In this document: one piece after another, positions 32,015-56,522 of the stretch
Layout of the letters: each line of letters begins with the position of its first letter
Numbering within the stretch: position 1 is the first letter of the stretch
Source: Paenibacillus sp. R14(2021)
Lineage (GTDB): Bacteria > Bacillota > Bacilli > Paenibacillales > Paenibacillaceae
Length of the DNA: 64,000 bases
Assembly (NCBI RefSeq): GCF_019431355.1
Contig: NZ_CP080269.1
Span: 868,001-932,000 of the forward strand
Direction of reading: 5' to 3'
Notes under the pieces: model-generated
Database searches by the model: none
What the model saw: only the letters and a program-made list of their open reading frames with translations
What the model was told of the DNA's origin: nothing
Program-made: the position numbers and the translations under genes

Positions 32015-33922
32015 GTGCCCAGAGGCATGTATCTTCTAGCCGGTGAAAGTCCGGTCGTGGGAGGGGCCAAGCCCCCATGTAGCTAGGATGCCTGCGTACG
32101 GCGAGAGCTTTGCGTAGAAGCGCATCGACATAAGTCTTGTCAGAGACAAGGCGAGCGACATACCAGGCCGTAACATCAAGTGAATCCTGCCGCGTCGTCA
32201 AAAAGGTCTCGCAAGAGGGACAAGAGGAAGCCGAACCTCGGCTTAATGGGTGAAGGCCACGGAAACTGCTACGAACTTGGAGCGGCAGTGAAGAATCCTC
32301 CGGCGTAAGGGGATCGGCATGGTATGAAAGAGGATACAGTGAACTGGGGAGACCCTCCCCTGCACGGATTTTTTTAAAAACCGTAACGAAGTGGTCTATA
32401 AGTCCAAAAGATGAAATGATCAACTTGCAGGAAGGGAGTCCGAGGGGCTCATAGTACTGAGGAACGACAGGACAACACAACCTGTCGGAGGGAAGGAGCC
32501 CTGCTTTGTTCATGTTTCTTGAGGAGGTACGAGTTAGTGAATGCCGAAGGGCTAACAACACCAAAAGAAAACGTTCAACAACTCCAAGAGAAGCTAGGTC
32601 ATGCGGCCAAGGAAAACAAGAAACGAAGATTCCATGCTTTGTATGACAAGGTCTATGGAAGGGATATTCTGTGGGAAGCATGGAGGCGAGTGCGCGCGAA
32701 CAAAGGTGCAGCGGGTGTGGATGAACAAACCCTTGCGGACATTGAGAGGCAAGGTGAATTTCAGTTCATAGAAGAGTGCCACGGACTGCTGAAAGAAGGA
32801 GACTACCACCCTTCGCCTGTTCGAAGGAAGTACATCCCCAAGAAGGATGGAAAGCAGAGGCCTCTCGGCATCCCAACCATTCGTGACCGGGTCATGCAAA
32901 TGGCAACGAAGCTTGTCATTGAACCTATCTTTGAAGCAGATTTCCAAGAATGCTCGTTCGGTTTTCGCCCGAAAAGGGGGGCCAAACAAGCGCTGGAACG
33001 AATCCGTAAAGCATGCAACCGCAAAGGAAATTGGGTGGTCGACGTCGACATCCAAGGCTACTTCGATAACATCAACCAAGAGAAGCTAATGAAGCTGATC
33101 GCCATGCGAATCAGTGATCGTCGTATCTTGAAATTGGTGAGAAAGTGGCTTGTTGCGGGAGTTATGGAAGAAGGAAGTGTCCGGCGCTCGGATTTAGGCA
33201 CGCCACAGGGCGGAGTGATTTCGCCTTTACTAGCAAATATCTATCTGAACTACTTCGATCTGTTGTGGGAACGCCATGGGAAACAATGTGGAGAATTAAC
33301 GCGATATGCAGATGACTTTGTGGTCGTATGCAAAACCAGAAAAGACGCTATGCGTGCCTATGAACTCATCCAGAGGATTATGGAACGATTGGAGCTAACC
33401 CTGCATCCGACCAAAACACGGATTGTTGGTTTATGGACAGGTGAAGAAGGCTTTGACTTTCTGGGGATGCATCACCGCAGAACGAAAGCAGAAACGTCCA
33501 AAGCACGAGTGTATTATTCAACACAGCAATGGTTAACTTCAAAAGCGGAAGCGCGGATTCGCGAAGTGGTGAAGGAGCGCTTAGCGCCACCAAGTATGCG
33601 AAAGTACGCTTTCCAGGAACACGTTGCATGGCTGAACCCCAAGATCCAAGGTTGGCGAAATTACTATAATACGTTTTACGGTAAACGGATATTAGCCAAA
33701 TTAGACTGGTATATTCTACAGCGGTTCACAAGATGGTATGCGAAGAAACGGCAACGAGCGAGATGGATAGGGTCCTATTCAGAGGTAAAGTATTTGGCAA
33801 AATTACATGGATTGAAGAAGCTCTTGTAGTCTGCACGCTCATGAATGACGAACATCGGAAAGCCGTATGAGGGAAAACCTCACGTACGGTTTGATGAGGA
33901 TCCCTTTACTCTAGTCCCTGAC
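32015..33922 (+). mobile_element. group II intron encoding a maturase/reverse transcriptase
   Basis: The left end probably begins GTGCCC at 32015, followed by about 500 bases of structured domain I-IV-type sequence. Domain V is recognisable at about 33859-33893 (AAAGCCGTATGAGGG... CCTCACGTACGGTTT). The right boundary is uncertain; I place it after AC at 33922, where the following GGGCAGGAAAGC looks like host sequence, giving about 1.9 kb. Domain VI looks short. The element lies immediately downstream of a host terminator hairpin, an insertion habit known for group IIC introns, though class is not decided here. Confidence 0.85.
32537..33829 (+). CDS. ltrA: group II intron reverse transcriptase/maturase
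   Basis: About 430 residues. Reverse transcriptase blocks are clear: RRKYIPKKDGKQRPLGIPT, FGFRPKRGAKQAL, VDVDIQGYFDNI, GTPQGGVISPLLANIYL and the active-site RYADDFVVV. A maturase (X) domain fills the C-terminal third and the protein ends there (LHGLKKLL), without an HNH endonuclease domain, so mobility would rely on reverse transcription at nicked or single-stranded targets. I chose GTG 32537 because GAGGAGG lies upstream. Confidence 0.92.
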   Translation: MNAEGLTTPKENVQQLQEKLGHAAKENKKRRFHALYDKVYGRDILWEAWRRVRANKGAAGVDEQTLADIERQGEFQFIEECHGLLKEGDYHPSPVRRKYIPKKDGKQRPLGIPTIRDRVMQMATKLVIEPIFEADFQECSFGFRPKRGAKQALERIRKACNRKGNWVVDVDIQGYFDNINQEKLMKLIAMRISDRRILKLVRKWLVAGVMEEGSVRRSDLGTPQGGVISPLLANIYLNYFDLLWERHGKQCGELTRYADDFVVVCKTRKDAMRAYELIQRIMERLELTLHPTKTRIVGLWTGEEGFDFLGMHHRRTKAETSKARVYYSTQQWLTSKAEARIREVVKERLAPPSMRKYAFQEHVAWLNPKIQGWRNYYNTFYGKRILAKLDWYILQRFTRWYAKKRQRARWIGSYSEVKYLAKLHGLKKLL

Positions 33923-45878: not shown

Positions 45879-45896
45879 AGCGAACATATATTCGCT
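45879..45896. promoter_or_regulatory. LexA-like palindrome
   Basis: AGCGAACATATATTCGCT is a perfect 6-6-6 palindrome. Its core CGAACATATATTCG differs by one base from the Bacillus LexA (DinR) box CGAACATATGTTCG. A short frame with a ribosome binding site follows about 90 bases downstream. Confidence 0.45.
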
Positions 45897-45981
45897 ATTC
45901 TATATTTGGGTAAATTTACCACAATTGAAGGATCCAGTGCTGTCAGCCCGCCCTTAACCGCCTGGAGAGAGGGGAATGATT

Positions 45982-46065
45982 ATGCTCCAGCGACCCAATG
46001 ATATTCAACAACTTAAGCAGCAAATATACAGCTATAGCTCAAATATATCACCCAATAATTGGTAA
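45982..46065 (+). CDS. 27-residue open frame, unknown
   Basis: ATG 45982 follows GAGAGAGGGG and reads MLQRPNDIQQLKQQIYSYSS and a few more residues. It is downstream of the LexA-like palindrome. It may be a small protein or the start of a decayed gene; I do not recognise it. I see no other gene in 45561-46170. Confidence 0.25.
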   Translation: MLQRPNDIQQLKQQIYSYSSNISPNNW

Positions 46066-46177
46066 TAGAAATATCTGGATCAGGATGCCCTATTGAAAGT
46101 GAAATCGGATCCTTCTAGAGAACTCAGTAATACCTACATATATACAATTGTCCTAAAAACGTAGAGGGACAAATTGA

Positions 46178-46321
46178 AAAAGCGTACTTCCCTCGGAGCC
46201 TCTTGACGAGAACCGTTTGAATCTTTCAAACGAAGATACAAGCAAGTTGAAATACATAGATGGAAAACCGACCTTTTTCTTCGAAGATCCGGAAGGGAAT
46301 CAGATTATGGTTACCGCATAA
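46178..46321 (+). pseudogene. C-terminal remnant of a VOC-family protein
   Basis: The frame ends KYIDGKPTFFFEDPEGNQIM and then VTA, the last strand of a VOC (glyoxalase/bleomycin-resistance) domain, and has no start or N-terminal half. It lies upstream of a cluster of intact VOC genes, so it may be a residue of the same gene expansion. Confidence 0.6.
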
Positions 46322-46596
46322 TTTTTTTCGATGAGGTGTTTGGTTTTTGTCCGTAATCATCTTGTAGAAGAAAGCAGTGATGTAAAGTTAGTAAAGCGCC
46401 ACAGAGTTATCATAGAGCTAAGGCATAGAGCTACAGATCCGTAGAAGATTCATCAAAAACGCGCTCATGACGCAACAAGTTGCGCTATGACCGGAATGGC
46501 TAACGATTGCGCCCATTCATGCAGCCAAAACCCTAGATCGTGAATCCAGGAAACTGGGTACTCCTTGTTTATAATAAAAAAAATTCCATTTAAAAG

Positions 46597-46612
46597 GCGA
46601 ATATATATTCGC
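46597..46612. promoter_or_regulatory. perfect palindrome upstream of sigma-factor gene A
   Basis: GCGAATATATATTCGC is an exact 16-base palindrome 48 bases before the sigma start. It shares the GCGAA-N6-TTCGC form with the palindrome at 45879, so both may bind the same regulator. Confidence 0.5.
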
Positions 46613-46660
46613 AATGAGAGGCCTGCATGGCCTAAATCCCCAAATACGGAGACTTAATCT

Positions 46661-47374
46661 ATGATGGACCATTCGGATTGGTTAGTCAGGCTGCGGCCGG
46701 ACCTGCTTCGCTATTGCCGCTCGCTATGCGGTAAGGGTGCTCAAGTCTGGGAAGCCGAAGACATTGCCCAAGAGGTTGTTGCCAAGCTGCTAAGCCGCTG
46801 CACGGAGGACCCCGATTTCCGCCCCTCCAAAACATATGTGCTGCGGACGGCCCGCAATCTCTGGATCGATCGCCTGCGGAAGCGGCAGGAAGTGCCGCTC
46901 CCCGAAATGCCGGTATCGCCGGAGACGGCGGCCTATCGGGACGATTCTCCGTATGCCGTCCGCGAGCTGCTCGACACGCTCATTCGGCGACTGCCGCCCC
47001 GGCCGTTCGTGATCCTGCTTCTTTGCGACGTCTTCGGATTTACGGCGAAGGAGACGGCGAACTGCATCGATTCCACGGAGGTTGCCGTACAGGTCGCACT
47101 CTCCCGTGCACGAAGCCGGCTGCGTCAACTCGTTTCCCGTGGACTCGGCCCGGACGATGACGCGTCGTCCGCTTTGATCTCGGTTCCGCAATCCCGCCTG
47201 CTCGACAAAGTGACGGAAGCGTTCCGCCGGCACGATCCGAAGCGGATTTATCAAGCGTACCTGGACCTCTACGAGAGCGGATCGACAATCGCGAGAATCC
47301 GAACGACGCCGGGCGGCCTTCTCTCGTTCACGTTCCGCGATCCCGAGGGCAATCTGCTGATGATCACCGGATAA
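46661..47374 (+). CDS. ECF-type RNA polymerase sigma factor with a VOC-like C-terminal tail (sigma A)
   Basis: A 237-residue protein. Sigma region 2 covers about 10-76 (EAEDIAQEVVAKLLSR, TYVLRTARNLWIDRLRKR) and region 4 about 100-158 (RPFVILLLCDVFGFTAKETA, VAVQVALSRARSRLRQLV). The last about 42 residues (RIYQAYLDLYESGSTIARIR, then LLSFTFRDPEGNLLMITG) match the second half of the VOC proteins encoded next to it rather than a SnoaL domain. No anti-sigma gene follows; the next genes are VOC and GyrI-like proteins starting 85 bases downstream. I infer a ligand-controlled sigma factor of cytoplasmic type. Confidence 0.85.
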   Translation: MMDHSDWLVRLRPDLLRYCRSLCGKGAQVWEAEDIAQEVVAKLLSRCTEDPDFRPSKTYVLRTARNLWIDRLRKRQEVPLPEMPVSPETAAYRDDSPYAVRELLDTLIRRLPPRPFVILLLCDVFGFTAKETANCIDSTEVAVQVALSRARSRLRQLVSRGLGPDDDASSALISVPQSRLLDKVTEAFRRHDPKRIYQAYLDLYESGSTIARIRTTPGGLLSFTFRDPEGNLLMITG

Positions 47375-47459
47375 TATTTTTTCTGGTTGCTCGCGAGCGT
47401 GTATGGTTGCCTCCCTCCCGTTCGTCTATTTATCGAAAGCAAGAATAGGAGGTTAAGGA

Positions 47460-47843
47460 ATGTTGCAAGCTTTGGAGCATGCGCAAATCCCGGTAAAGGA
47501 CATAGACCGGGCGATCAAGTGGTACGCAGAATACTTGGGCTTCAAGCCTACGAGGAGGGACGGGGACCGGATCGCGTTCCTGACGCTTCCTGCCGGGCCG
47601 ATTCTTATGCTGTGGAAAACAACGAGCGACACGGCGGCGCATTTTAAGGTGGATGGCGTGGATTTTCCCGTGCTGCTGTACCGGACGGAACGCATTCACG
47701 AGCTGCATGATCGGCTTATGGAAGCCGGGGCGCAGATTCAAGTCTATCAAGACGACGGCTTTGCCTGGGTGCTGAAATTTTACGATCCCGAGGGCAATCT
47801 GTGGGGCACCTTACAGATGAATGAGAAGCAAGGGGAGGCTTGA
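47460..47843 (+). CDS. single-domain VOC family protein
   Basis: A 127-residue VOC protein (LEHAQIPVKDIDRAIKWYAE start, LKFYDPEGNLWGTL end). The canonical last-strand metal Glu is replaced by Gly (DPEGNLWG), which argues against glyoxalase- or FosA-type catalysis and for ligand binding. Strong ribosome binding site ATAGGAGGTTAAGG. The stop lies two bases before the next start, so it belongs to the sigma A operon. Confidence 0.85.
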   Translation: MLQALEHAQIPVKDIDRAIKWYAEYLGFKPTRRDGDRIAFLTLPAGPILMLWKTTSDTAAHFKVDGVDFPVLLYRTERIHELHDRLMEAGAQIQVYQDDGFAWVLKFYDPEGNLWGTLQMNEKQGEA

Positions 47844-47845
47844 AG

Positions 47846-48304
47846 ATGAGCGTGGAAATTCGGCTGGTCCAGTTGAAGGAGAAGAAGTTCGTCGGAATTC
47901 CCTGCACGTCAGCATTCGCCAATCATGAACCCGAGAGAATAGAAGCAGTTCGACTGCAATTTATGAAAAGTCGAGGTGAGATTCGGCACGTCGTCGATCC
48001 GGAGCAATTCGCCTGCATTAGCTTTACATCCGAGGTCCTGTTTACGTATAGCCACTGCCTCGAGGTCGACGATATCGATGAAGTGCCGGGCGGCATGATC
48101 GGGTTCTCGGACCCCGCCCACGACTATGTTGTCGTCCGCGCTAAGGGTGACCCTTATGAAGCGGCGTATGCCTACTTATCGGAAATTGGCAAGATTCCGG
48201 ACAAGAATGCGCTGTTCTGGGAGGAATACCGCTTCGCTAACCCAATTTGGCCGGACGAGGCTTGGGTTTACGTTCCGATCAAGGAGGAATCCGCCGATGT
48301 TTGA
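47846..48304 (+). CDS. GyrI-like/AraC effector-binding-domain protein
   Basis: A 152-residue stand-alone effector-binding domain (VEIRLVQLKEKKFVGIPCTS, KGDPYEAAYAYLSEIG, DEAWVYVPIKEE). Such domains bind cationic or aromatic small molecules in BmrR- and Rob-like regulators. ATG 47846 follows GGGGAGG; an in-frame TTG two codons earlier overlaps the previous stop. It overlaps the next gene by 8 bases. Likely the small-molecule receptor of this sigma locus. Confidence 0.8.
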   Translation: MSVEIRLVQLKEKKFVGIPCTSAFANHEPERIEAVRLQFMKSRGEIRHVVDPEQFACISFTSEVLFTYSHCLEVDDIDEVPGGMIGFSDPAHDYVVVRAKGDPYEAAYAYLSEIGKIPDKNALFWEEYRFANPIWPDEAWVYVPIKEESADV

Positions 48305-49094
48305 GCGTATCGACCGTGTCATCCTGCCAGTTATGGATGTGAAACGCGCCGCGGAATGGTATGTGAGCGAACTGGAATTCCGCATTCACCGGTGTCGCGG
48401 CCGGGAAATCGACCTGCATGTTCACCGGGGCGAGACGCTGCTCACGCTGACGGAGGTCCTTCCGTTCCAGCCGAGGCCACATCTCCACTTGGATGGACAT
48501 GTGCCTTGCTTCAATTTTTATACGCATTGGGAGGACCTGCACCTCGATTGGCTGAGGGAGCGAGGCGTACGTACGTCTGAAGTGATGCTCGATCCTCATA
48601 TGAACGTCGCCGAGATGGAAGACCCGGACGGAAACGTCATCGGCATTTGTCACGAGAAGGCAGGCTCCCTGTACCATACGCCGCACGAGGGCCCGCTGCC
48701 CCCGATGTTCCACCGCGTGCTGGCTGTTTTCCTGCCCGTTCGGGATTTGGAATCGTCCATTGCCTGGTATGTCGGCATGCTCAGCTTCAAGCTCCACCAT
48801 CATTGGGGACAAGGGGCGGACTTGACTGTCGGCGGCGGGGAGACGATCGTCACGATGATCGCGATGTCCGAAGAGGTTCATTGCCGCACGATTGCCGGCA
48901 TGAGCGACATCCCGTACTATTCGCTGCAATCGGATCGCATTCACGAGACATACCGGAAGCTCCAAGAGCGAAGTGTTACGGCGGACGAATGCTCGGAACA
49001 GGACGGCATCGTGCAATTCCACGTCCGTTCACCTGAAGGATTACTCATTCGTATATCAGAGAAGGAGGCAGTGAACGTTGAGCAGCCGCGATAG
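48297..49094 (+). CDS. tandem VOC-domain protein (two VOC domains)
   Basis: A 265-residue protein of two VOC domains, about 1-125 (VILPVMDVKRAAEWYVSELE to DPDGNVIGICHE) and 135-265 (VFLPVRDLESSIAWYVGMLS to SPEGLLIRISE). The metal Glu is replaced by Gly and Arg. The start overlaps the stop of the GyrI-like gene and has an AAGGAGGAATCC ribosome binding site inside it. It overlaps the next gene by 17 bases. Confidence 0.85.
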   Translation: MFERIDRVILPVMDVKRAAEWYVSELEFRIHRCRGREIDLHVHRGETLLTLTEVLPFQPRPHLHLDGHVPCFNFYTHWEDLHLDWLRERGVRTSEVMLDPHMNVAEMEDPDGNVIGICHEKAGSLYHTPHEGPLPPMFHRVLAVFLPVRDLESSIAWYVGMLSFKLHHHWGQGADLTVGGGETIVTMIAMSEEVHCRTIAGMSDIPYYSLQSDRIHETYRKLQERSVTADECSEQDGIVQFHVRSPEGLLIRISEKEAVNVEQPR

Positions 49095-49887
49095 AGGAAT
49101 AACCCCATTGGAGCAAAGAGCAGCGTCCATATTCGTGCATGTTGCGGATCTGCGGAGGTCGGCAGAATGGTACAACAAGCTGCTCGGCTTACCCTTGCTG
49201 GAGGACCGCTTCAATGGCGGACCTGTCTATTGGTACAATCTGCAGCATACGAATCTGATCCTAGACAACGACGCCGCGAATCAGGCCAACCCTGAATGGC
49301 AGGCGTCTATGAAGCCGCGAATCATGTTCAAGACCTCGGACATCGACGAGGCATATGCCTACGTGAAGGAGATGGGCGAGCCGTTCCTCGAGCCGGAGCA
49401 ACACGGCAGCGTCATGGCTTATTTCAACTTCCGTGATCCGGAAGGCAATGCGCAGATGGTGTGCTGGACATCGGAGGAAGAGGAAGACATGGGGGAACCC
49501 ATAGGCACAAGTCCGATCCTCCCCCGCATCGGAGCCGTGTTCATCGACGTGAAGGACATGACCGCGATGAGTTCATGGTATGCGGATTTGCTTGGTATTC
49601 CAGCGGACGCTTATCATGCCGAAGGGGAAGTCATCGCCCTGCCCTCGACGAAGGGAGGAGGCATTCTGCTGGACGCCAACCGTCACCTGCAAGGCAACGA
49701 CTTTACCATTCCGTTTATGTTCGTGACGGAGGATCTCGAAGCTTCGCTTGTTTATGCCAAAGTCAATGGCTTCGAATTGTTCGGCGAGCCTCAGTATTAC
49801 GGCCCTGTCTCCTTCTTCGTTCTGAAGGACCCCGACGGTAATCTCGTCATGGTGTGCCGGGAGGAGACGAATTTGGCTGAGCATTAA
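49078..49887 (+). CDS. tandem VOC-domain protein (two VOC domains)
   Basis: A 269-residue protein with VOC domains at about 15-135 (IFVHVADLRRSAEWYNKLLG to DPEGNAQMVCW) and 148-265 (VFIDVKDMTAMSSWYADLLG to DPDGNLVMVCR). The metal Glu is Met in both. TTG 49078 follows AAGGAGG at 9 bases and lies inside the preceding gene. It is the last member of the sigma A operon. Confidence 0.85.
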   Translation: MSSRDRGITPLEQRAASIFVHVADLRRSAEWYNKLLGLPLLEDRFNGGPVYWYNLQHTNLILDNDAANQANPEWQASMKPRIMFKTSDIDEAYAYVKEMGEPFLEPEQHGSVMAYFNFRDPEGNAQMVCWTSEEEEDMGEPIGTSPILPRIGAVFIDVKDMTAMSSWYADLLGIPADAYHAEGEVIALPSTKGGGILLDANRHLQGNDFTIPFMFVTEDLEASLVYAKVNGFELFGEPQYYGPVSFFVLKDPDGNLVMVCREETNLAEH

Positions 49888-50017
49888 TAGCAGGGGAGCT
49901 AACGTATCGCTGCTCTTTGAAAGCAGGGGGACATGATTTTTATTTGTGGAATTAGACTCTTGTTCTCAGATTTGTTAAACTTTTACTGAAAACAATCAAT
50001 TTGTGATGGAGGAAGTT

Positions 50018-51016
50018 ATGGGTAAAATTGCAATGTTTGGATTTGGACGTATCGGAAGGCAGTTTCTAAGAGTCGCCTTGCAACACAAATTTTTCGTCCC
50101 GGTATCGATATCGGATATTAAAGACGAGGGCACGCTTGCCGCATTGTTTGAAGTAGACACCAATTACAAGCGCTGGCCTGAAGAAGTTTCTGGCCAAGAT
50201 GGTGTCATTCGTATCGGCGGAAGGGAAATTCAATACATTAATTCGTCCCAGGAAGTTCCCGATTGGAAGGCGCTCGGTGTGGATTTGGTCATCGATTGCA
50301 CCGGCAGAGCCGTTAAACGCTCCGTCGCTCAAGTTCATCTGGACCGCGGAGCCAAGAGAGTATTGGTGAGTGGGCCGAGTAATACAGTGGAAGACTGCGA
50401 TGCGGTGCTGCTTAAAGGGATCAACCTGGATAGCTTCAATCCGGACAAGCACAAAATCATTAGCATGGGAAGCTGCACGACCAATGCTTTAGCTCCCGTT
50501 GTTAAATTGATTAGAGAAAATTACGGACTCAAGTATGGTTTGTTTTCCACCGTTCATTCATATACGAATACACAGTCGCTGACGGATCAACCGATGAAAA
50601 ATCGCCGGGATTCTTGGGCCGCGGCCGAGAATATTATCCCTTCTTCTTCCGGGGCAGCCAAGGCGCTGAAATTCATTTGGGACGATCTGCAGATAACGGG
50701 CAAAGCCTATCGGGTTCCGACCCGTACCGGAAGCATCGCAGAGCTCAATCTTATAACGGAAAAGCCTTGTACGGTAGAGCAGATAAACGATATGTTTCGC
50801 GGTGCGGCTAAGGAAGGCGAGTTGAAGGGAGTGCTAAACGTCTTGGAAGACGCGTGGGCATCTTCCCGTATAGTAGGCGATTCTCATTCCTCGATTATCG
50901 ACTTGCCTCTCACCCAGGTGCAAGGAGAGATCGTTTCCATTGCCACCTGGTACGATAACGAATGGGGTTTTGCTTCGCGTTTGGCCGATGTTGCCAAATA
51001 TTTGGCTGATCGGTAA
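50018..51016 (+). CDS. gap: divergent glyceraldehyde-3-phosphate dehydrogenase paralogue
   Basis: A 332-residue GAPDH-fold protein. The NAD site reads MFGFGRIGR (normally NGFGRIGR). The active site is C153 in MGSCTTNALAP (normally NASCTTN) with H180 in STVHSYT. The C-terminal YDNEWGFASRL is conserved. The canonical S-N-A before the active cysteine and the nearby second cysteine are changed, so it is a paralogue with possibly different aldehyde specificity. ATG 50018 follows GGAGG at 5-6 bases. Single gene, followed by a terminator. Confidence 0.88.
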   Translation: MGKIAMFGFGRIGRQFLRVALQHKFFVPVSISDIKDEGTLAALFEVDTNYKRWPEEVSGQDGVIRIGGREIQYINSSQEVPDWKALGVDLVIDCTGRAVKRSVAQVHLDRGAKRVLVSGPSNTVEDCDAVLLKGINLDSFNPDKHKIISMGSCTTNALAPVVKLIRENYGLKYGLFSTVHSYTNTQSLTDQPMKNRRDSWAAAENIIPSSSGAAKALKFIWDDLQITGKAYRVPTRTGSIAELNLITEKPCTVEQINDMFRGAAKEGELKGVLNVLEDAWASSRIVGDSHSSIIDLPLTQVQGEIVSIATWYDNEWGFASRLADVAKYLADR

Positions 51017-51040
51017 TATATCCATGTAACTTAGAATTTA

Positions 51041-51056
51041 CGATATAGCTCAACGC
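51041..51056 (+). repeat. copy 3 of the CGATAG-CTCAA intergenic motif
   Basis: CGATATAGCTCAACGC follows the GAPDH gene, and a second piece ACGGGTACAG lies on the other side of the terminator hairpin at 51094. Confidence 0.35.
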
Positions 51057-51093
51057 AAAGAAGGCTGCTCTGCGAGTAGCCTTCTTTGCGTTG
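51051..51093 (+). terminator. perfect 16-bp hairpin after the GAPDH gene
   Basis: Positions 51051-51066 and 51078-51093 are exact reverse complements. No T tract follows. Confidence 0.65.
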
Positions 51094-51585
51094 ACGGGTA
51101 CAGTTAAATATATGAAGCGGTGGTCTAGAACTTTCTTATGGCGTCTTTGGTGTTCAGTGAAAATAAAGTATTAGACCGTGAAAATAAAGTTTTCTTAGTG
51201 CTTTATAGCTCAATCTAAAAACTACATGCTACTATCGTAGGAGCTTAGATTAAAAAATGGAAATTTAATTTTCTAATTATTTATGGTTTAATATTAATGA
51301 ACCAGTTTTACCCCTGTCTACAACGTGAAGCCTCCAAGGACTTCTGAATAAAGTTTGTGGAAAACTGGTTCAATTTCATTTATATTGCAGGAGAACATAT
51401 AACTTTTGTTGAAATATAACTTGTGCAGTGACCTCTAGGGAAGCCACCGTAATAGGCATGGAGCCGGCTAATTAATATTCCTGGACTTCTATTATAGATT
51501 TGGGGCACTCCATTTAATGGCACTGCACCCTTACCTCAATATTCAAACGAAACTTGCCAGATAAGGTAAGTTTTTTTATTTTTTT
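51094..51585 (+). other. gene-free AT-rich stretch before the IS110-family element
   Basis: Two direct copies of GTGAAAATAAAGT start at about 51157 and 51179. I see no gene or strong hairpin in this interval. It may hold decayed insertion-sequence ends. Confidence 0.3.
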
Positions 51586-51643
51586 AAGAACCTTATAGAA
51601 GGAAAAATAAACCATTTTGTCGAATCAAAGAACCTTATAGAAG
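51586..51643 (+). repeat. 16-bp direct repeat upstream of the transposase
   Basis: AAGAACCTTATAGAAG occurs exactly at 51586-51601 and 51628-51643, 42 bases apart. It lies in the noncoding left end of the IS110-family element. Confidence 0.6.
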
Positions 51644-51807
51644 AAATGCAGTAACCCTTGAAATAATTGGGGCATATGATGACCTCTTTGTATAATGTGG
51701 GTTTTACTGCACTATCGTTAAATCCTGACATGCTACATTGGGCCCTATGGAGCGCTAAAGAAAACTTGGATAGATAGTGCTTAACTGCAACAATCTCTGG
51801 AGGAGTT

Positions 51808-53244
51808 ATGAACAATCAATTTTCCATTGAAGTTGAAAAGCACAAACCAGAAATTAATAAGTGGTATCAATTTTATGTAGGTTTAGACATCGGTGCAGAT
51901 TTTCATGTTGCTGCTTGTATTCCATTTGAAAAATTCCGTAGTGAAAAAGAATGGAAACGGCAAAAGACTATGAAGTTTTACTCCGATGGTAAAGGAATTA
52001 TTGACTTCCTATCACAATTAGGGAATATACGAAAAGGTTTTGGATTAGAACCGTCAGATTTTTTTATTTTATTAGAGCCTACTGGTGGTCATTACTCCTA
52101 TTTAGTGATGAAAGTTCTTTTGGACGAAGGGTATCATTTGTTCCAGGTTAAAAATAAATCGGTAAAGGATTTTCGAGAACGTCAATTAGGCCTTAATGAG
52201 AAATCTGATGAAATCGATGCTAGAATCATGGCTTACATGGGTTGGCATAAGACACTACACCCAGATATGAAGGGTATACGATTAGTAAAACCTGTGACCC
52301 CTACACAAATTCTTTTCCGAACTTTAACGAGGGACAGATGGCTTCTTTCTACTCAATTAACAAGAAGGAAGAACCAGATACAACAGCTTTTTTTAGTTAC
52401 GAATCCGGAGCTTAAGCGAGCATTTAAAAAGCCCGGCTCAAGTACTGTTATGAAATTAGTTCTACAGTATCCAACAGTAAAAGAAATGTCTCAAGCAACA
52501 CAAGAAGAGCTACGGAAAGCTCTTATTTCTGTTGGAGCTAAAACAATAGCGACAAAGGCTTCTGTAACATTAAGTGAATATTTACCGCACTCCTTAGCCA
52601 TCCAAGTACCACATCTAATCGAGAGACAAACATAGCTTATCGAAGAAGTTCTTCGTTTTGAAGAAGCAATCAAAAGCATCGATAAACAAATTTCTGTTTT
52701 ATTACATGGAGACAAGGATAAGCAGATTCCTCCTCATCCCTACACTGCTTTACTTAAGTCGTTTCCAATTATGAGTGATGTAATGGCTTGTACATTAATT
52801 GGTGCTATTGGTGATGTTGAACGGTTTTCCAATTATCTTGAATTTAAAAAGTACTTAGGCGTCGCTGCTGAAAATAAAACATCAGGAATTTCAGTCTCAA
52901 AATCTAGACAAACATATGAAGGTGTAAGAGATACTCGTCGAATTCTATTTTTAATGGTATTGGTGCTTATATCACCTAATACAAAGTCAAACCTATTTAA
53001 ACATTATTATGATCGTTTGGTTAATGGCCGGGGAATGAGTAAACGAAAAGCTATTGGTCATGTATGTGGTAAAATCGCACAGGTGATGTATTCTTGTTTG
53101 AAAAATAATCGGATGTATGATCCAGTCTTACATGCCAAACATCTGGGTGTCCCATGGGATGAAAAATGCATTGACATAAGAATGCCCAAAAACATTGATG
53201 AATTAGAATCTGAAGCAGCTGAATTTTCTGAAGAAATTGTATAA
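51808..53244 (+). pseudogene. IS110-family transposase interrupted by an amber codon
   Basis: Reading through one TAG at 52633-52635 gives a 478-residue transposase with the family DEDD set visible: D27 (GLDIGADFHVA), E90 (LLEPTGGH), D134 and D137 (KSDEIDARI). The C-terminal half has the transposase IS116/IS110/IS902 domain (FPIMSDVMACTLIGAIGDVE, YLGVAAENKTSGISVSKSR). The frame is the same on both sides, so a single nonsense change after residue 275 splits it. Start ATG behind GGAGGAG. Confidence 0.85.
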
Positions 53245-53261
53245 ACTTTACAACAAGAAGG

Positions 53262-53295
53262 CGGCATACCGGATACTACTCGGATGCCGTTTTCT
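53262..53295 (+). terminator. hairpin after the transposase gene
   Basis: CGGCAT (53262-53267) pairs with ATGCCG (53284-53289) with CCG/CGG inside, followed by TTTTC. Confidence 0.6.
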
Positions 53296-53421
53296 CAACT
53301 ACATGCAGATTTCTTTATTCACATCCTATTTTACGGTACTTAAGTAAAAAAAATGTCATTCCAGTAGTTCTAGGTAACTTTTTATTTATTAGATGGCTCC
53401 TTCATAACGAGGAGGGATTTC

Positions 53422-55335
53422 ATGAGAGATATTCACAGTCTTGTTGAAGCAATCATCAGAGCACGAAAGAGTGAACAAGAGGAACAAACTGCCTTCTCGG
53501 AGCTTGTTGCGAGGTTCCAGGATATGGCATACGGTCTAGCTTTCTCCGTTCTGGACGATCGTCATTTAGCACAAGACGCTGCCCAAGAATCATTCGTTTT
53601 AGCCTGGAAGGAGATCGCACAGTTAAAAGAGCCTGCTGCATTCTCAGGATGGTTCAAACGAATCGTTCTATCTCAGTGCAATCGGTTGACACGGGGTAAA
53701 AGGCTAGATACTGTCATACTCGATGACGCATTAGTTGTTGAAGATGAGAAAGGAGACCCGGCGAGGGTTGCTGAAAGTCATGCGCTAACGGAACAAGTAC
53801 GCGGGGTATTGATGGCGTTGCCCGAACATGAGCGGCAAATAATTATGCTATTTTACATAAGTGATTATTCGTATCAAGATATTGCAAGTTTGCTGGAAAT
53901 CCCCATTTCCACGATAAAAAAAAGGTTATTTACCGCTCGTAAACGATTGGAAGAAAAGATGCTTGGTCTTATCAAAGAGGGGCTATACGAGATTCGGCCG
54001 TCTCGAAGCTATAGCTTTGTTAACCTCGTCCAACGGCTATTATCATCTGGTTGTAAACCGGAGATGCATAGAGACTGTCTTCATATCAAGCTGAACAGCA
54101 ATGGGGGGTATGCCATCACCCCGGACAAATACAAAGTGCCTTTTCGCATCGTACTCGACGCCAAAACGGATTCCACAAACCTTCGAATCCGGTTTGCCCG
54201 AAGCGAAATCATTTTTAATTGGGATTATCGTCCAGATGAGTTTCAATGGGTTGACCCAGCTACCGGGCGATTAACACGAATACCGGAACAAGGACGTATT
54301 CCGGTGAATGAGTTCGTACGGATTGAGTGGGTGATCGAAAGAAACTATTCCAGCGTGTCGGTGAATGGGATCGAACGTTATCGCACGAACGGAAGCTACG
54401 GTCATTTATCCGGTCAAATTGGTATTGGGGCCGCTCATGGATCGAGAGTAACGGTTCAGTCATTTTCTGTAGAAGGACAACAAAGTACTGAAGGTTATGA
54501 AATCAAAGAGCCCCCGAGATATGAAATTGATGGCGGGATGATCAACGTACTCTGGGAAAATCATGATTCGGCAATTGAATGGTTTGAGCAACATCTAGGT
54601 TGGCAGCGTACGGGACAATCCGAAAATTGGAAGCATGATGAGAATTCCGATGCTGAGAAAATGACACCGCTTGGAATCCCGCGTGTTGGTGTTCTGTGGG
54701 TGAAGTCAGTAATTGCACAAAAGAAATCAGAGCATTTTTATGTTGAACGTGAGGCTGGTGATCCCAATCTCAGATTATACTTTTGTACTAACGAATTACA
54801 TTCCGTACATAACTACATGAAAGAAAACGGCATACGGACTTCAGATATTTATCTTGGTCCTGGTTTTCGGGAATATTTTGATTTTTGGGCAACGAGTGAA
54901 AACATTAGGATGACAGCGTGCGAATATCCCGAGAAAGCGATTAAAGGCACGCGAGTCGCACCAGCCGAATATTACCGCATCGGTGTGCGTGACCTAAGGA
55001 AAGCCAAGGAATGGTATCAAGAAGTGTTTGGCCTTGAGTTAGTTGAGGAATACGATGATCAGGGGTGGATACTCCTTAAATCCAGACAATCCTATTATTC
55101 GGACAGCTACTCCGAGTGGTGGCTTGAGGCATTGCCCCATGATGCCGTTAATGGCATATCTGACGGTCCCGTTCGGCAATACCTTCACGTTCGAAATTTA
55201 GATCTCGAATATGAGAGGTTGCATGCCCTTGGAGTAAGAGTTTCGGGACTTACTGGAAACCCTCCATCGCAAGGATTCCGACTATTTCACTTCTATGATC
55301 CTGATGGTAACCGTTGGAATGTGTGGCATTATTAA
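53422..55335 (+). CDS. ECF sigma factor fused to concanavalin-like and two VOC domains (sigma B)
   Basis: A 637-residue fusion. Sigma region 2 is at about 26-90 (ARFQDMAYGLAFSVLDD, AQDAAQESFVLAWKEI) and region 4 at about 124-178 (LPEHERQIIMLFYISDYSYQ, LEIPISTIKKRLFTARK). A beta-rich LamG/concanavalin-like (DUF1080-like) segment spans about 205-352. Two VOC domains follow at about 370-503 and 513-637 (YRIGVRDLRKAKEWYQEVFG to FYDPDGNRWNVWHY). The last VOC lacks the metal Glu (Asn instead). There is no transmembrane helix or anti-sigma gene, so the sensor is built into the sigma factor itself. Ribosome binding site GAGGAGGG. The next gene begins 30 bases later. Confidence 0.88.
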   Translation: MRDIHSLVEAIIRARKSEQEEQTAFSELVARFQDMAYGLAFSVLDDRHLAQDAAQESFVLAWKEIAQLKEPAAFSGWFKRIVLSQCNRLTRGKRLDTVILDDALVVEDEKGDPARVAESHALTEQVRGVLMALPEHERQIIMLFYISDYSYQDIASLLEIPISTIKKRLFTARKRLEEKMLGLIKEGLYEIRPSRSYSFVNLVQRLLSSGCKPEMHRDCLHIKLNSNGGYAITPDKYKVPFRIVLDAKTDSTNLRIRFARSEIIFNWDYRPDEFQWVDPATGRLTRIPEQGRIPVNEFVRIEWVIERNYSSVSVNGIERYRTNGSYGHLSGQIGIGAAHGSRVTVQSFSVEGQQSTEGYEIKEPPRYEIDGGMINVLWENHDSAIEWFEQHLGWQRTGQSENWKHDENSDAEKMTPLGIPRVGVLWVKSVIAQKKSEHFYVEREAGDPNLRLYFCTNELHSVHNYMKENGIRTSDIYLGPGFREYFDFWATSENIRMTACEYPEKAIKGTRVAPAEYYRIGVRDLRKAKEWYQEVFGLELVEEYDDQGWILLKSRQSYYSDSYSEWWLEALPHDAVNGISDGPVRQYLHVRNLDLEYERLHALGVRVSGLTGNPPSQGFRLFHFYDPDGNRWNVWHY

Positions 55336-55365
55336 TTGAAAAAATGATGAAAGGGAGTAGTTTAA

Positions 55366-56522
55366 ATGAGCTTATGTAACGGATTAGTAGCTGAGTATTA
55401 TTTCATGGCAATGCGAACGATTCCAGTGAAAACGGATTTCACGGACGCGTTGAAGGTGCGGTACTAACTTCAGATCGGTTTGGGCAACCGAATTCTGCAT
55501 ATGAATTTGATGGTGAGCAAGCCTTTATTGAGATTTCCCCCCCGCCGTTATTAGACAGTGAGGCGTTTTCTATCTCTGTTTGGGCTCGATATGATGAGAA
55601 GGCATCTTTGGCATGGTGGAATAACGCCATTGTTTCTCAAGATGATGGCGGAAAGAACAAGAATAAGGACAATTTTCGCCGTGTATTTCAATTAAGTGCT
55701 TTAGGCCCAATCATTACTTGGCATCGAATGAAAGAAACTACCGACGCGGTGTCAAAAAGTCATCTGCAACGCGGTGTTTGGTACCATATTACTGTAGTAT
55801 TCGATGGTGCATTTCATAAATTGTATATCAATGGAGAACTTCACGATACCCAAGCCGGAACACTCAGACCTCACCCGGAGGAACCGATTTTCATTGGTAA
55901 AAAGAATACAAATGAAAAACGATTTTTATTTCATGGAGATATTGATGATATTCGTCTTTACAATAAGGTCCTTTCTGAACAAGAAATATTAGCTCTTTAT
56001 ACGGAAAACGGATACGCAAGCACTTCGGACACAAACATACAACAAATAAATGAACCTAAGGAGGAGAAGGTTTTAGAGGCAAAGGTCGGATACAGGGAGT
56101 ATAAGGTTATCGGGATAAGGAATTGTGAATTGTTTTCCGAGTACGGAAAGCTCATTCCTCAAGCTATGCAATCACATCGTGATCGTGAGAATGAAATATC
56201 CGGGCGAACCGACATCGAGGTTATCCTTTATGAGCCTAAGCGCGGCGACGACCATATCGAGGGGTATTTTTATACAGGGTATATAGTGACTGAATCGGCT
56301 GCAGACATCCCGGAAGGAATGGAATATTTTCATCTAACGGGCCATTATGCATCTGTAACTGGTGATGAGTCCCTTATGGGTGAACTATATGGATTTTTGG
56401 ATGGATGGATTCGAAATAATCAGCTTCAAAAAGATTGGCCGAAAGCATTCATTATAGAAGTATATGACCATGATCACCTAAATGAAGTTGAAATTTGTAT
56501 GAAGATAATTAATCAAAACTAA
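55366..56522 (+). pseudogene. LamG-GyrI-like effector-binding protein with one-base deletion
   Basis: ATG 55366 (behind AAAGGGAG) reads MSLCNGLVAEYYF and then shifts; in the next frame the protein continues DGNANDSSENGFHGRVEG to the stop at 56522. Restoring one base near 55404 gives about 385 residues: a LamG/concanavalin domain (about 5-215, with AYEFDGEQAFIEISPPP and VWARYDEKASLAWW) and a GyrI-like effector-binding domain (about 240-385, VGYREYKVIGIRNCELF). It follows the sigma-VOC fusion and shares its sensor repertoire. Sequencing error or true lesion cannot be told apart here. Confidence 0.8.

Follow-up and report, generated by a model that had tools for sequence, protein, structure and literature searches.

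How is an extracytoplasmic function (ECF) sigma factor controlled when no anti-sigma gene is apparent beside it? ECF sigma factors without an anti-sigma factor form a large unexplained class, and the question is raised here by a stretch of 64,000 nucleotides (the window) of the 5.98-Mb genome of Paenibacillus sp. R14(2021), contig NZ_CP080269.1, positions 868,001 to 932,000. Locus A of the window (46661-49887) encodes an ECF sigma factor (sigma-A), a vicinal oxygen chelate (VOC) protein, a GyrI-like protein and two VOC-VOC proteins. In this study, we found that sigma-A ends in a tail derived from a VOC domain and that the adjacent VOC operon is its probable target; the target promoter and the VOC origin of the tail are well supported. 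The whole is best explained by reading locus A as a cytoplasmic regulatory operon of sigma and VOC genes, the sigma tail docking a VOC partner; our confidence in this reading is evenly balanced. An earlier annotation made from the sequence alone (the original prediction) had reported the gene content of locus A in overlapping genes; Pfam confirmed the content, and the last four genes overlap in series. Both the VOC-like tail of sigma-A and the sigma-type promoter before the VOC genes had been missed. The features of locus A are as follows:

46661..47374, + strand: sigma-A, an ECF sigma factor with sigma2 and sigma4 (Sigma70_r2 3.7e-11 and Sigma70_r4_2 1.3e-9, over the Pfam cut-off; AlphaFold mean predicted local distance difference test score [pLDDT] 82)
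47183..47371, + strand: C-terminal tail of sigma-A, residues 175-237, opening with a helix similar to that of SnoaL tails and continuing as the final helix and three strands of a VOC domain (Pfam counts, profile comparisons and AlphaFold secondary structure)
47400..47428, + strand: ECF-type promoter pattern TGTATGGTT-N14-CGTCTA in the gap from the sigma-A stop to the VOC-A1 start (pattern searches)
47460..47843, + strand: VOC-A1, a single VOC domain (Pfam Glyoxalase 5.6e-14; PDB 2rk0 2e-7)
47840..48304, + strand: GyrI-like (Cass2) small-molecule binding protein (Pfam Cass2 7.9e-8, 33.1 bits, over the cut-off of 27; GyrI-like 25.6 bits, just below the cut-off of 26; PDB 5xbi 0.002, BrlR 5xql 0.0086)
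48297..49094, + strand: VOC-VOC protein A2, with the start chosen at the ATG at 48297 (Pfam Glyoxalase, two stretches)
49078..49887, + strand: VOC-VOC protein A3 (Pfam Glyoxalase and Glyoxalase_6, two stretches each; no PDB match by sequence search at E ≤ 0.01)

Sigma-A and the sigma factor of locus B (sigma-B, described below) are both of the ECF class (sigma-70 group 4), each matching Sigma70_r2 and Sigma70_r4_2 over the cut-off with no region 3 match listed, and both domains were matched in 66 out of 66 members of the sigma-A family (E ≤ 0.1). Relatives of sigma-A were present in 58 of the 246 genomes searched, its own included (E ≤ 1e-25), and the nearest, among the best 80 matches of a scan of named genomes, was that of Paenibacillus sacheonensis (83% identical). 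The protein searches (with sigma-A, with the whole locus B protein, with the sigma factor L245 and in a later search of the class) scored 7 to 11 candidates per genome.

From 77 relatives of sigma-A, 70 genes were chosen as tailed by tail length and a short motif, that is, for VOC-like tails and not for their neighbours. A profile of these 70 tails aligned with the final 46 columns of a VOC-domain alignment (120 of 154 domains collected, all tailed sigmas left out) with a profile probability of 98.3 and an E-value of 2.3e-14, compared to a probability of 1.6 for the reversed-sequence control. Pfam Glyoxalase matched the sigma-A tail at E 0.0041, below the cut-off, and 18 out of 66 family members at E ≤ 0.1 (best 1.2e-4). 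The AlphaFold model of sigma-A, made with 65 relatives (predicted template modelling score 0.55), gave the tail two helices (residues 175-189 and 193-206) and three strands (209-215, 221-226 and 232-236). The VOC superfamily is defined by two beta-alpha-beta-beta-beta units; the tail contains one unit without its first strand and aligns with the end of the second VOC unit. In all likelihood, the VOC part of the tail is an incomplete half-module consisting of a helix and three strands. Across 66 sequences its residues D227 and G230 are invariant and F223 nearly so.

The beginning of the tail resembles a different domain. Its first 27 columns matched the helix that opens the tails of eight sibling sigmas counted as untailed (probability 90.4) and the shorter tails of eleven other siblings (68.2), and the eight sibling tails gave a probability of 0.6 when compared with VOC. 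SnoaL_2 was matched by six of these eight at E 1.3e-5 to 0.008, all below the cut-off, with no match for the other two. SnoaL_3 matched two of the 66 sigma-A family members (best E 0.018), and sigma-A lacks the complete SnoaL/NTF2-like C-terminal domain of ECF41 and ECF56. When 114 sigma cores were placed on a tree, a single clade (98/96) held 69 tailed sigmas together with one sigma that has an apparently frameshifted tail, while five further tailed sigmas sat beside untailed ones without a settled placement. The fewest tail changes on the tree numbered four (three to five over bootstraps; well-supported branches force two). Taking the VOC fragment, the SnoaL-like first helix and the tree together, the tail looks like a piece of VOC that a SnoaL-tailed ancestor acquired on one or a few occasions, and a SnoaL origin is less sure for the first helix than a VOC origin is for the rest.

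In many loci, about 65-95 bp separate the sigma stop from the VOC start, and within this gap lies a bipartite element, TGTWTGGTTT or CCCGTTTCTT and then CGTTTATT or CGTTA. Two strict patterns were present in 29 of the 74 stretches after sigma, in none of the 74 before it and in no shuffle of the after-sigma stretches. A wider pattern occurred in 58 of the 74 after-sigma stretches of 100 bases (shuffles: mean 2.5, largest 7) and in two of the 74 before sigma (shuffle mean 1.7); where the VOC gene precedes sigma, it was found upstream of VOC in 11 out of 18 (shuffle mean 0.6). When the pattern was frozen and applied to later loci, it was found after sigma in nine out of nine and before sigma in none of the nine. 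In its own genome, the strict fixed-spacer form had only two perfect matches, one before VOC-A1 (47400-47428) and the other before the VOC gene beside a paralogous sigma at 4.18 Mb, and one further place matched with a mismatch. Because an ECF-type promoter pattern lies directly upstream of VOC and its strict form is near-exclusive to VOC genes in this genome, the VOC operon is very probably the target of sigma-A, and perhaps the sole direct target of each sigma. A sigma-type promoter makes VOC first of all a likely target, and we are highly confident, from the sequence patterns, that sigma-A would direct transcription of the VOC-GyrI-VOC-VOC genes from the dedicated promoter at 47400-47428.

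The sigma and VOC genes are also conserved together. In 80 fetched relative regions (nine of which had been chosen for LamG matches) and the window, a full VOC gene lay on the same strand within 500 bp of 67 out of 70 tailed sigma genes, against a flank background of three VOC genes in 336 kb lying beyond 3.5 kb from sigma. Among named genomes (the best 80 of at least 592 stretches), a VOC neighbour was found for 57 of 65 tailed and two of 15 untailed sigmas. One of these two untailed sigmas looks like a frameshifted tailed gene, and the eight tailed exceptions comprise two at a contig end, two with the VOC gene at 504 and 666 bp and four with none. This set overlaps with the fetched one (e.g., L082 and L172), and its tailed sigmas come from Paenibacillus, Cohnella, Brevibacillus, Bacillus, Tuberibacillus, Alkalicoccobacillus, Virgibacillus and one member of the Paenibacillaceae. 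When 398 genomes of the class were searched later, 30 loci were returned, and in the 28 new ones examined a VOC neighbour was present for nine of nine tailed and none of 19 untailed sigmas; the nine represent one genus, with likely kin (L233, L235 and L236) in the earlier set. Joint conservation of sigma and VOC genes, on which the original prediction chiefly depended, was thus borne out, and since locus A is conserved in relatives, a chance arrangement is ruled out on this sequence comparison.

In 93 distinct sigma-VOC pairs, VOC came after sigma in 74 and before it in 19. The local VOC profile had been grown from VOC-A1 and may hold C-terminal stretches of sigma; the partners and the full-VOC sigmas were therefore checked with Pfam, and 92 of the 93 partner genes matched Glyoxalase at E ≤ 0.001. 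These 93 loci were chosen for a VOC gene within 600 bp, and only their non-VOC counts are informative. No family of non-VOC neighbours (at least 80 residues, within 3 kb, by BLAST clustering) occurred in more than nine of the 93 loci. As a result, no anti-sigma gene is apparent near sigma, as had been claimed, and the conserved anti-sigma or membrane gene of the classical ECF arrangement did not appear in this tally, which would let a fast-evolving or distant gene escape and involved no anti-sigma model or membrane-helix scan.

The GyrI gene, previously regarded as a shared core part, lay within 4 kb in only 11 of the 70 tailed loci, and the closest relative (L082) has none between VOC-A1 and VOC-VOC; it is therefore an optional and not a core part of the sigma-VOC locus. 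GyrI-GyrI-pentapeptide-repeat proteins were seen in larger sigma-VOC clusters (L174:9568-11040 by Pfam; L176, L085 and L087 by eye or size), a mix reminiscent of gyrase-protecting proteins. In VOC motifs of the D-P-x-G-N type, a Glu is expected for the metal site. This Glu is missing from all four such motifs in the VOC proteins of locus A, a pattern that suits binders rather than enzymes.

A second sigma lineage contains a complete VOC domain. L245, a sigma matching that of locus B, has one over the Pfam cut-off, and L135 is another such sigma. When L245 was used to search 246 genomes, the best 20 of many matches were examined, most of the others covering the sigma part only. By the local profile, a full VOC domain lay within sigma in 17 of the 20 loci, the other three being one broken frame and two sigmas ending in pentapeptide repeats (L276 and L280 have this C-terminus in place of the VOC domain). 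Pfam recognised Glyoxalase in 15 (E ≤ 0.01) and pentapeptide repeats in two of the 19 unbroken sigmas; the claimed fusion of VOC to sigma is real. An adjacent VOC gene accompanied 14 of the 17 full-VOC sigmas. The promoter pattern GACGG-N-CGTCTAT, which was drawn from the same loci where it was counted, followed sigma in 11 of the 17, each of these being one of the 14 that have a VOC neighbour, and was found before sigma in none of the 17 and in no shuffle. Since sigma and promoter both differ while the layout is the same, the second lineage is read most simply as a parallel origin of the sigma-VOC circuit layout.

We propose a mechanism of four steps. In the first, sigma-A would transcribe the VOC-GyrI-VOC-VOC genes from the 47400-47428 promoter. 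In the second, sigma-A carries its VOC half-module after a helix that would come from a SnoaL-type tail. In the third, this tail, replacing the usual membrane anti-sigma factor, may dock a VOC protein of its own operon, and that protein, empty or loaded with a small molecule, would hold or free sigma. In the fourth, the induced VOC and GyrI proteins might bind or sequester the compound, closing a feedback loop. The second lineage, with sigma, full VOC domain, own promoter and VOC gene, would be a parallel version; sigma-B has its VOC pair in the same chain.

These steps differ in how far we trust them. A regulatory role of the sigma-A tail is likely by analogy, because the tail replaces the SnoaL domain thought to be regulatory in SigJ and SigG1 (PMC8999054, section 3.5; available part of PMC7730460). 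Docking of a VOC partner would most simply account for a tail of VOC origin next to VOC genes, and that a VOC protein is the tail's partner seems to us just short of even. Our expectation that the ligand is a toxic small molecule or an antibiotic is neither weak nor strong, and one-component ligand gating of the sigma, proposed earlier, is what we also infer. A bolder version holds that a ligand-binding VOC protein, expressed from the promoter that sigma itself serves, supplies in trans what the open half-module lacks and so would act, by fold completion, as a soluble ligand-gated anti-sigma factor or co-activator. It further supposes two or more origins of such a circuit, one with a half-VOC tail and one with a full VOC domain, under different promoters; we think this version rather unlikely.

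Several observations weigh against this explanation of locus A. The promoter pattern is absent from 16 of the 74 after-sigma stretches, and its wider form was drawn from the same loci in which it was first counted. Tailed sigmas without a nearby VOC gene exist (L099, L156, L189, L196, L200 and L203). The partner VOCs are diverse, with 88 out of 92 only 15-28% identical to VOC-A1, which fits variable sensors but plain detoxification targets as well. A Glu near the glyoxalase metal-ligand position is kept in 40 of 96 partner VOC motifs, and therefore part of the partners may be enzymes. Over 80 sigma-partner pairs, the distances of VOC correlated with those of the sigma core at r 0.63 and with those of the tail at r 0.57, and the partial correlation with VOC was lower for the tail (0.16) than for sigma2 (0.27); contact between tail and VOC thus draws no support from co-evolution. 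The AlphaFold model of sigma-B, with a mean pLDDT of 59, was too poor for use.

The alternative that survives best is that the VOC genes are only detoxification targets and the tail acts within the sigma chain, as is thought for the SnoaL tails of ECF41 and ECF56, the VOC protein never touching sigma. The promoter evidence, which marks VOC as a target, the SnoaL-like helix at the start of the tail and the want of any special co-variation between tail and partner all agree with it. So does SigG of Mycobacterium tuberculosis, a relative of the SnoaL_2-tailed SigG1 (available part of PMC7730460): the two genes most induced by its over-expression (16-fold and 11-fold) encode VOC-domain proteins with a common predicted promoter motif, and binding is not mentioned in the available part of that report (PMC3776920). 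The same induction is a precedent for the first step proposed above. However, this alternative leaves unexplained both the VOC origin of the sigma tail and its close tracking with an adjacent VOC gene (nine of nine versus none of 19, and 57 of 65 versus two of 15). We regard it as a serious possibility, although clearly below even. Alternatively, the tail could be a by-product, the remnant of an old read-through fusion with the neighbouring VOC gene that is now structural or neutral. It is true that the tail amounts to no more than part of a domain and that VOC genes lie next to it, but the conservation of D227, G230 and, nearly, F223 across several genera, while the partners differ widely, and the existence of full-VOC sigmas make this improbable. 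Control by a classical membrane anti-sigma factor encoded elsewhere is very improbable, as nothing positive was found for it in a neighbourhood analysis blind to a distant gene and there is no second conserved neighbour (the top non-VOC family reached nine of 93 loci in a BLAST clustering that would miss very divergent families).

Locus B (53422-56522) is separated from locus A by a glyceraldehyde-3-phosphate dehydrogenase gene and pieces of an IS110-type transposase (two pieces, 51808-53244, by Pfam). It consists of two genes:

53422..55335, + strand: sigma-B fusion, an ECF sigma (residues 1-186), a LamG-like beta domain (about residues 187-363, weak) and VOC-VOC (residues 364-637) (Pfam, homology)
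55366..56522, + strand: LamG-GyrI gene with a 5' frameshift, the remaining open frame encoding Laminin_G_3 and a GyrI-like domain (Pfam, frame reading)

Sigma, middle domain and VOC pair of sigma-B are in one frame, the second VOC domain being well over the Pfam cut-off and the first recognised by homology to two-domain VOC-VOC proteins. The LamG domain once assigned to this chain is less certain. Residues 187-363 had no Pfam LamG match at E ≤ 1, AlphaFold gave the middle domain a pLDDT of mostly 20-50, and of four relatives scanned three had weak Laminin_G_3 matches below the cut-off (0.001, 0.0063 and 0.064) and one had none. In the next gene LamG is clear (Laminin_G_3, 9.9e-25). Its GyrI part had no Pfam match at E ≤ 1 and, in a PDB search, only one unrelated-looking match (E 0.95); it is similar to GyrI-GyrI proteins in three loci (E 1e-6 to 8e-6), one of which (L174) is recognised by Pfam. 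The start of this gene is apparently at 55366, from where the frame MSLCNGLVAEYYF... stops at 55467. Because its domains lie in another frame than this start, the gene is frameshifted near its 5' end (55366-55608), by mutation or sequencing error.

The sigma-LamG-VOC-VOC chain was seen in the window alone, no other fusion of sigma, LamG-like domain and VOC being found in 146 relatives searched with the whole protein (eight candidates scored each) or 246 searched with the middle domain. The VOC pair is common elsewhere, stand-alone or behind GyrI, and in five loci that were read (L003, L004, L006, L008 and L009) it lies beside an AraC-GyrI regulator (AraC by eye); LamG-like-VOC-VOC proteins were found beside or apart from sigmas. 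As the VOC pair and LamG-like-VOC-VOC recur in relatives and the larger relatives of locus A add GyrI-GyrI-pentapeptide proteins, locus B looks as if it draws on the same pool of small-molecule-binding modules as locus A, the fusion being apparently a local event. The suggestion that the two loci are split and fused forms of one sigma with the same parts did not hold, given that their cores fall in different parts of the 114-core tree. There sigma-B groups with L245, a sigma with a full VOC domain, and the two branches are long and may have been falsely joined. Other long sigma fusions were noticed. One type, with a C-terminal part BtrH_N-like by eye, occurs in the own genome and in relatives (L001:4963-6891, L029 and L187:9524-11155), and in L029 it adjoins a LamG-like-VOC-VOC gene. 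In L022-L027 and L030, sigma factors are fused to a long DUF1835-like domain (by eye). Elsewhere in the window, a group II intron reverse transcriptase/maturase lies at 32519-33829 (Pfam).

Upstream of locus A are three further features:

46597..46612, no strand: palindrome GCGAATATATATTCGC, 48 bp upstream of sigma-A (pattern search)
45879..45896, no strand: second copy of the palindromic operator-like site, before a decayed sigma copy (own-genome pattern search with 2 mismatches; sequence)
46230..46365, + strand: relic of a second tailed sigma gene, with tail end ...EDPEGNQIMVTA-stop, T-tract and TGTTTGG -35-like element (sequence, three-frame reading)

The palindrome GCGAATATAYATTCG precedes sigma in eight of the 93 distinct loci, the window included, all among the nearest relatives (L082, L086, L087, L089, L091, L173 and L206); it is also found in L175, about 620 bp upstream. 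In the nearest relatives it is this palindrome, and not the promoter pattern, that precedes sigma, so expression of the sigma gene may be under the control of another regulator. A role as a genome-wide operator was rejected, as the palindrome (up to two mismatches) occurs in the own genome at three places in all, of which one precedes sigma-A and one the relic. The decayed unit at 45879-46365 comprises palindrome, tail end, T-tract and -35-like element, and three-frame reading revealed no intact frame upstream of its tail end.

The VOC-tailed sigma is, as far as our searches show, a real, conserved and undescribed variant of tail-regulated ECF sigma factors. A review of non-canonical ECF sigma factors contains no glyoxalase or VOC by word search, and its section 3.5 names no such extension (PMC8999054). 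A word search of the available part of a second review found no glyoxalase (PMC8103513), and the available parts of PMC8195603 and PMC12274486 do not describe a sigma-VOC fusion. Titles and opening lines of abstracts among the papers listed gave no description either, in a search that did not take in the full ECF re-classification, and a numbered ECF group for VOC-tailed sigmas may already exist. The family offers a clear candidate promoter, a tail whose fold is that of the target proteins, and a second lineage in parallel, which together make tail function, partner binding and ligand each testable in one small operon. If a VOC protein does gate sigma, sigma factors would have a soluble sensor of small molecules, and through it the compounds detected by soil Paenibacillus could be found.

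Among known systems, the nearest are the SnoaL-tailed ECF sigma factors (ECF41, SigJ; ECF56, SigG1; SigG), which likewise join an ECF core to a C-terminal extension thought to be regulatory; SigG1 and SigJ were among the ECF structures found by Foldseek. In Streptomyces tsukubaensis, SigG1 is bound by a soluble partner, RsfG, encoded next door (available part of PMC7730460). Sigma-A keeps a helix resembling the first helix of SnoaL-like sibling tails, but the rest of the SnoaL domain is swapped for a VOC half-module, and the sigma-A family has adjacent VOC genes and one promoter layout, unlike the SnoaL-tailed factors. In ECF42, too, a cytoplasmic sigma has a tail, and a regulatory role has been proposed for the conserved small protein encoded beside it (PMC8999054, section 3.5), although its parts are a tetratricopeptide repeat (TPR) tail and a YCII-related protein instead of VOC. 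The VOC proteins of locus A share their fold with VOC drug-binding proteins (the bleomycin-resistance type; EhpR), to which their motifs without the metal-site Glu are also similar, and differ from them in being placed under a VOC-tailed sigma. Finally, the GyrI-like small-molecule module of locus A, whose nearest structures by PDB sequence search are 5xbi, 5xbt and BrlR (E 0.002 to 0.009), is like that of AraC-GyrI and BrlR-type effector-binding regulators, but in locus A it stands alone, without a DNA-binding domain.

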